64,000 bases of DNA from Thermococcus barophilus MP (GTDB lineage Archaea; Methanobacteriota_B; Thermococci; Thermococcales; Thermococcaceae). Below are positions 58,302 through 59,986 of this stretch, in pieces. The stretch covers positions 806,001-870,000 of the forward strand of contig NC_014804.1 of assembly GCF_000151105.2 (NCBI RefSeq). The letters are read 5' to 3'. The notes beneath the pieces are model-generated. The model worked only from the letters and a program-made list of their open reading frames with translations. It ran no database searches and was not told the origin of the DNA. Numbering within the stretch: position 1 is the stretch's first letter; the number at the start of each line of letters is the position of its first letter. A program made the position numbers and the translations under genes.

Positions 58302-59192
58302 ATGGAAAGGTGGAAGATAATAAAAGCCTTCACGCTTGGACCTTTGCTTGAGGTTATGATTCCAAAGCCTGGCAATGTGAACCGCTTTAAAGATTTCGAG
58401 GATTTGACCCTTTATCATTTTCTCTTTGGAAATGTTGCTGTTGTTGATATCCTCTATGAGGCAACGGAGGTCAGCAGATTAATTAAGCGAGGGGATTATC
58501 AGCTAAGTGAAGCCAATATCGGAGAAATGATCAAAAGGGCAGTCCAAAATGCAAAAGCTACACAAGATGCAAATCCCAATTTTGGCATAATAGCACTGGA
58601 GATTCCTCTTGTAATTGCTTTAACTATATCAAAAAACCTTTATGATGCCAGAGAACTTGTAAAAAGGTTAATTGAACATTCAACAGTTAGAGACGCAATG
58701 GAGTTCTACAAGGCAATAAGAATCGCCAACCCCAAAGGAATAAAGAGCGGAGTTAAATATGATGTTTATGATGAGAATGTTTTTGATGAGCTTTTCAGAG
58801 ATAGAATCAACCTCAAACGCTTAGCTGAAATAAGCTGTGAAAGAGAGCTTATTTTTTGTGAATGGTTAAATGGGTATGAACTCAGCTACAAGACATTCCT
58901 GAGGCTCAAAGAATTAACCAAGAAATTCAGCCTTGAAGAAGCTGTTTTAAATGCGTTTATTGAGCTCTTAGCATCAACCCCAGACACCCTTATTATCAGA
59001 AAAGCTGGAAAGACTGAGGCTGAACTTGTAATGAGGAAGGCGAGAGAAACACTGGATGGAACTTTCAGTATCGATGAACTGGATAAATTCCTAAGGGAAA
59101 AAGGAGATCTAAGGAATCCCGGGAGTTTGGCAGATATAACGGCAATTGCTTTGAGTTTGCTGATCCTTGATGGCTACAAATTTAATCTTTAA
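58302..59192 (+). CDS. Triphosphoribosyl-dephospho-CoA synthase (CitG/MdcB) family protein
   Basis: 296 residues. CitG signatures: [14 protein letters not shown] near 22-35, [13 protein letters not shown] near 94 and the C-terminal [24 protein letters not shown]. CitG makes the prosthetic group of citrate or malonate lyase from ATP and dephospho-CoA; no such lyase is in the window, and archaeal members probably serve another ribosyl- or CoA-transfer role. Located 5 bp after the toastrack gene. Its end overlaps the DUF1884 gene by 11 bp. Confidence 0.83.
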
Positions 59193-59466
59193 TTATTCTT
59201 ATCCTTCTTGCTCCTCCCAGTCCAATTCCAAGCATCTTGGAATCTATAACGACAGCGTCCCTGCCAAGCTCTTCAAGGACTCTTACCTTTAATCCTGAAA
59301 CTTCTGTGATCCTCTCATCCTCACCGAATTCTTCATCCACCTGAGCCTTTAAGAACTCATAGGCTTCCTTTCCAAAGAGAACAATATCGGGTTCAAAACC
59401 GTCCATTTTGAGCTCGTTGGCTTTTTCTTCAACTGCACTTAGGATTCTAATTAAATCCCCCCTCAT
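59182..59466 (-). CDS. DUF1884 protein, HK97 A-domain (Family 4 encapsulin-like)
   Basis: 94 residues. [42 protein letters not shown] and [23 protein letters not shown] follow closely my recollection of P. furiosus PF0899 (PDB 2PK8), whose structure is a lone A domain of the HK97 phage capsid fold. Such proteins have been classed as Family 4 or A-domain encapsulins in hyperthermophiles and are thought to form ring-like or partial shells around a neighbouring enzyme. The OsmC gene lies 63 bp upstream on the same strand. RBS GGTGAAC before ATG 59466. Confidence 0.82.
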
Positions 59467-59529
59467 TCAGTTCACCTTGGAATGAACTATGATGCCAATA
59501 CATTTAAAGTTTTTCATACGTGTAAAACT

Positions 59530-59925
59530 TCATTCATTGATGATTTCAAATGTGTATGCAACTTCAGTTCCGCTGAGCTTCAAATGTGCCGAGGCTGAGC
59601 AATATTTGTTTTGGCTGAGTTCTATTGCCCGTTTAGCCTTTTCTGGCTTTACATCTCCATAAATCTTATAGTGGATATGAACCTTTTTGTAAATCCTCGG
59701 ATGTTCCTCCCTCCTTTCCCCGCTTATCTCAATTTCGAGGTCTTTGATTGGTTCTCTCATTTTCTGCAGAATCATGACAACATCAATGGCTGTGCATCCG
59801 GCAACAGCTAAGAGGAGGGTTCTCATAGGAGAGATGCCCTTTTCTCCAAAGATTATTTTTCCTCCTTCTTCAACACTTGCCTCAAATTTTTCATTCCCAA
59901 TCCATCTAACTTTCCCTGTTATCAT
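59530..59925 (-). CDS. OsmC/Ohr family protein
   Basis: 131 residues. Two redox cysteines: C44 in VAGCTAIDVV and C109 in NKYCSAS, as in OsmC/YhfA-type proteins, which reduce organic hydroperoxides in some members. HPRIYKKVHIHYKIYG forms the central strand. GGTAAAATG gives a weak RBS; start ATG 59925. Same strand as the A-domain encapsulin-like gene just downstream and possibly its operon partner. Confidence 0.88.
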   Translation of the reverse strand: MITGKVRWIGNEKFEASVEEGGKIIFGEKGISPMRTLLLAVAGCTAIDVVMILQKMREPIKDLEIEISGERREEHPRIYKKVHIHYKIYGDVKPEKAKRAIELSQNKYCSASAHLKLSGTEVAYTFEIINE

Positions 59926-59986
59926 TTTACCACCCGGATATCAATTAGGGGCAATTCTTTTTAAATAGCTTTGTAAACTTTATCTC

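Follow-up and report, generated by a model that had tools for sequence, protein, structure and literature searches.

A Family 4A A-domain protein beside OsmC in Thermococcus barophilus: independent neighbour or partner

The 64,000-nucleotide stretch of Thermococcus barophilus MP that was analysed here (the window) encodes a 94-residue Family 4A A-domain encapsulin-like protein (4A) downstream of an OsmC-family protein on the same strand. We lean towards the view that 4A is an independently promoted, lineage-core lone HK97 A-domain protein that is syntenic with OsmC and not part of an OsmC-cargo operon. Under this reading, the 4A gene would be transcribed as its own unit instead of following OsmC in a dedicated OsmC-cargo operon, and some transcriptional read-through from OsmC into 4A would be possible. 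Its product would be a small soluble oligomeric structural protein (dimer or ring) with a general or yet-to-be-found client, and OsmC would work alone as a redox/osmotic-stress protein. More tentatively, this view may extend to the lineage as a whole: throughout Thermococcaceae, 4A proteins may be single A-domain proteins that belong to the lineage core, are expressed independently and share one function, in which case the published 4A "operon types" would describe neighbours and not cargo. On balance, separate expression of a lineage-core A-domain protein that adjoins OsmC is better supported than a dedicated OsmC compartment.

The 4A-OsmC locus and the published Family 4 framework

The locus is laid out as follows (positions in the window).

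58302..59192, + strand: CitG-like protein (PF01874), convergent with 4A; its 3' end overlaps the 4A gene by 11 bp
59182..59466, - strand: Family 4A A-domain encapsulin-like protein, 94 aa (PF08967 / NF041190), ortholog of PF0899 (PDB 2pk8)
59472..59477, - strand: Shine-Dalgarno AGGTGA before the 4A start codon; GGTG at -10..-7 is kept in 4A loci of the main genera
59501..59515, - strand: BRE/TATA-like element GAAAAACTTTAAATG within the OsmC-4A gap, invariant in 6/6 genomes of the genus; probable independent 4A promoter
59530..59925, - strand: OsmC-family protein, 131 aa (PF02566), nearest to the YhfA/Aq_1549/TM0919 branch, with C44 and C109 invariant and without a C-terminal extension
59957..59968, - strand: candidate OsmC TATA element CTATTTAAAAAG, read from sequence, in the 61-bp divergent region common to OsmC and a radical SAM gene

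A preliminary description of this DNA had assigned the 94-residue protein to the DUF1884 A-domain family with the HK97 capsid fold, and had named the two-cysteine OsmC peroxidase-like protein encoded upstream on the same strand, across a 63-bp gap, as a candidate cargo or partner. Both open reading frames and the 63-bp gap were found where it had placed them, and the two family assignments were borne out. The 94-residue protein matches PF08967 (ENCP4, formerly DUF1884) with an E-value of 2.4e-32 and 111 bits (cutoff 31.4), NF041190 (encap_f4a) with 161.4 bits (cutoff 90), and the solved structure 2pk8/PF0899 with an E-value of 7.9e-32; by the PF08967 and NF041190 profiles it belongs to Family 4A. 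The 131-residue upstream protein matches PF02566 (OsmC) with an E-value of 1e-16 and carries the two cysteines, C44 and C109. Beyond 2pk8, a PDB profile search with 4A returned only helical-repeat and other chance matches. F0LMI5, the 4A sequence modelled in the study of Andreas and Giessen, may itself come from T. barophilus, as we presume from the style of its accession.

The identification of 4A and its pairing with OsmC are correct, yet both were already published by Andreas and Giessen in 2021 (PMC8346489). In that study, Family 4 comprises the A-domain encapsulins, divided into 4A, 4B and 4C, and an OsmC operon type is described for 4A only, in many cases together with a MarC-like gene. 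Because the family and the OsmC operon type are both described there, the finding is already known and in itself adds little. The window locus shares with the published type its family, fold, OsmC neighbour and lineage (Thermococcus/Pyrococcus), but it lacks the MarC-like gene that is often present. Andreas and Giessen propose enzyme complexes with A-domain oligomers, call this function speculative, and mention a chaperone role (PMC8346489). The main text of a T. kodakarensis interactome paper mentions neither encapsulin, OsmC nor DUF1884 (PMC12016516).

Linkage to OsmC and a promoter-like element of 4A

PF08967 is present in 92 of the 94 Thermococcaceae genomes, and each of the 74 high-quality ones has at least one copy; a search of 21 further genomes of the phylum found no copy. 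The match is therefore far beyond chance. Linkage to OsmC was assessed at two levels. Among the 86 Family 4A loci of Thermococcaceae, 59 have OsmC within 4 kb upstream on the same strand. Counted by genome, from protein matches of OsmC and 4A coordinates and not from ORF maps, 84 have OsmC. It immediately precedes 4A in 19 (<200 bp), lies on the same strand within 4 kb in 40, mostly with at least one gene (MarC or others) between, and is far from 4A in 16. The other nine were left out because of contig breaks, which leaves 75 evaluable genomes and direct adjacency in 19/75. The pairing is thus not restricted to this genome, but direct adjacency is limited to this fraction.

The gene directly upstream of 4A varies among the 86 loci and can be OsmC, OsmC-MarC, OsmC-MarC-x, MarC alone, a family-less protein, a DHH/S1 protein or an unrelated gene; the gene maps behind this list used a mechanical longest-ORF choice, so that some intervening genes are mis-called. 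The spacing between OsmC and 4A is a few tens of bp in the genus of T. barophilus (g1) and in a second genus (g5), and in one genome (G024) some 35 kb separate the two genes, which are on opposite strands. A sulfhydrogenase (SHI hydrogenase) lies upstream of 4A in the Pyrococcus-like genus (g3), and in G008, a genome with a 4A almost the same as 2pk8, the hydrogenase and 4A are separated by four ORFs on the opposite strand. If the Pyrococcus-like genus is left aside, the convergent CitG-like gene accompanies 4A most steadily, at 76/77 loci. The 3' overlaps between these two genes, of 8-17 bp, recur in nearly all of the 4A loci outside that genus. The CitG-like protein of the window (58302-59192) scores far below the NCBI equivalog cutoffs.

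Within the 100 bp upstream of every 4A start, an A-rich stretch precedes a box of the TTTAAA/TTTTTAA type, which lies some 35-45 nt ahead of the start codon, and GGTG stands at -10 in most genera. The same arrangement characterizes the promoters of T. onnurineus, which have a TATA box of the form TTWTAW with an A-rich BRE and the Shine-Dalgarno sequence GGDGRD (PMC5316973). A BRE/TATA matrix was trained on a small, related set of divergent genes from the loci compared, with 4A, OsmC and MarC excluded. The best match fell at -49..-41 from the ATG in 59/86 4A loci, which as orthologs are not phylogenetically independent, compared to a mean of 13.8 and a maximum of 21 in 40 shuffled sets. The element kept its position at 4A loci with an unrelated upstream gene, namely 3/3 loci with a gene of one protein cluster (clu46), 4/4 with other genes and 7/8 with an opposite-strand gene.

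The strength of this signal differs by genus, and the loci whose best match falls elsewhere include those of g1, g3 and g5. In g1, GAAAAACTTTAAATG is invariant in six genomes, but its matrix score is moderate (6.3) and a site further upstream scores about equally in 4/6 of them, so that what speaks for a promoter in this genus is the perfect conservation of the element among six related genomes. In g5, there is an overlap between a TTTAAG box and the OsmC stop codon, so that conservation of the box is inseparable from coding constraint; the matrix usually favours other sites. In g3, the box lies at about -36, and the 4A transcripts are probably leaderless. The 63-bp gap of the window locus shows no clear terminator, which is why some transcription may continue from OsmC into 4A. 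OsmC lies upstream of 4A on the same strand, yet 4A has its own BRE/TATA-like element and variable neighbours. The word "operon" is doubtful for OsmC-4A because of this independent promoter-like element and the frequent loss of adjacency.

The 4B paralogs show a different layout. The second A-domain gene of this genome, a 4B gene (G000:C1:1328633-1328854), overlaps the upstream DeoC gene by 4 bp and is without a promoter-like element. None of the 17 non-Pyrococcus 4B starts had a BRE/TATA match exceeding the 95% null, and most overlap DeoC by 4 bp. Given this overlap and the missing promoter-like element, DeoC-4B resembles a true operon, in contrast to 4A, which seems to have a promoter of its own. 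The two proteins have the same domain, with 32-38% identity and eight shared invariant residues, but 4B has a shorter loop and a conserved acidic C-terminal extension that is absent in 4A; the 4-bp overlap with DeoC is found in Thermococcus, while Pyrococcus 4B has GAPDH upstream. The eight residues invariant across 4A and 4B are E18, L19, P26, D27, G32, D70, D75 and R88 (4A numbering); several are charged, and an interface or site common to both groups may lie here. Family 4B proteins are able to bind an enzyme encoded next to them, as shown by the GAPDH/A-domain complex of P. furiosus cited by Andreas and Giessen (PMC8346489). Family 4A cargo assignments rest on gene order and are not trustworthy without transcript or binding data, and DeoC-4B, with its overlapping genes, is the better system for probing whether A-domains bind their neighbours.

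OsmC as a candidate partner

The published hypothesis sees OsmC and 4A as a functional unit of two genes: oligomers of the A-domain would bind OsmC or surround it, and so either protect it or channel peroxide chemistry. The definition of an OsmC operon type and the GAPDH/A-domain complex cited with it (Andreas and Giessen 2021) speak for this hypothesis, as do the 59/86 loci with OsmC within 4 kb upstream and the spacing of a few tens of bp in g1 and g5. We nevertheless consider it unlikely, given that adjacency is broken or interrupted in most genomes, that 4A has its own promoter-like element, that OsmC lacks a targeting extension, and that the rate of 4A does not change where OsmC is missing. 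Had 4A adapted to OsmC, one would expect it to diverge differently where OsmC is absent; the CitG-like neighbour served as a clock. Residual 4A identity relative to CitG was +0.002 in OsmC/OsmC pairs and -0.005 in OsmC/no-OsmC pairs, with a standard deviation of about 0.05; by this measure, 4A divergence does not depend on a nearby OsmC. No C-terminal targeting extension or conserved tail was found in the OsmC orthologs, which end with the domain. That encapsulin cargo should carry a targeting peptide or extension is, however, an expectation taken from Families 1-2, and it may not hold for Family 4.

Of the earlier proposal that a Family 4 protein has OsmC as its candidate cargo or partner, the identification and the pairing therefore stand, and the inference is weakened by the 19/75 adjacency, the separate element, the unchanged divergence and the missing targeting extension. 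Counterpoints apply to our preferred reading of 4A as an independently promoted neighbour. The proximity of OsmC to 4A in 59/86 loci could reflect selection for linkage, a separate 4A promoter is compatible with an OsmC-4A protein complex or with read-through, and the GAPDH/A-domain complex of P. furiosus is a case of such binding in Family 4B.

The chemistry of OsmC bears on what such a partner would do. C44 and C109 are invariant in 60/60 OsmC orthologs and correspond to the two active-site cysteines of OsmC/Ohr proteins. In Ohr/OsmC, a catalytic Glu should stand 9-10 residues ahead of the first Cys. The residues at positions 10 and 9 before this Cys are Met34 and Lys/Arg35 in 60/60 orthologs, so the Glu is absent from all of them; the structural relative 2e8c has Met-Glu. 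The label "peroxidase-like" thus agrees with the invariant cysteines and not with the Glu position, and because that position is Met/Lys/Arg, a peroxidase function of the window OsmC is uncertain. It shares the fold family and the two active-site cysteines with the OsmC/Ohr organic hydroperoxidases, but it differs from them at the Glu position and its nearest solved relatives are Aq_1549, TM0919 and YhfA. For possible counterparts of the window OsmC, stress responses have been described: the T. kodakarensis OsmC (TK0189) is reported to be induced by osmotic, not heat or oxidative stress (PMC4473059), and a T. gammatolerans OsmC by cadmium (PMC3407056).

Alternatively, 4A could be a general stabiliser or chaperone-like oligomer for several enzymes, with OsmC and the hydrogenase merely example clients. 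The A-domain gene stays while its partners change (OsmC, MarC and SHI for 4A; DeoC or GAPDH for 4B), and a chaperone role was mentioned by Andreas and Giessen. We regard this alternative as distinctly unlikely.

Fold and capsid kinship of 4A

The AF2 model of 4A has a pLDDT of 91 and superposes on 2pk8 with a TM score of 0.95. This structure is that of PF0899 of Pyrococcus furiosus, an ortholog of the window 4A with 63% identity in the structural alignment. PF0899 is filed as hydrogenase-linked, whereas the window 4A has OsmC upstream. 2pk8 crystallised as a dimer (PMC8346489). The Foldseek matches ranking after 2pk8 are mostly HK97-fold phage capsids, with probabilities up to 0.99 and TM scores of about 0.4-0.6; all of the HK97 matches have E > 0.03 and are thus below significance by E-value, and the best encapsulin in the list is at rank 26. 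At 94 residues, and with these structural neighbours, 4A corresponds to a protein of about 100 residues made up of the A-domain of the HK97 fold only, and the HK97-type fold claimed for it earlier is upheld. Viral contigs and phage and plasmid records contained no relative of 4A at the sequence level, and a PHROGs search returned only weak, scattered matches. The HK97 A-domain assignment is therefore made on the fold only.

It is improbable that the resemblance is convergent and that 4A is unrelated to capsids and encapsulins: such an origin would fit the lack of a sequence-level match to any capsid or encapsulin, the E-values and TM scores of the HK97 matches and the low rank of the best encapsulin, but HK97 capsids occupy most of the Foldseek list below 2pk8, at probabilities up to 0.99, and viral capsid matches recur in BFVD. 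In a separate observation from BFVD, the 4A model matched small phage proteins of unassigned function (82-128 aa, for example from Bacillus phages SP-15 and CP-51) with a probability of 1.00. This resemblance suggests that single A-domain-like proteins may exist in phages too.
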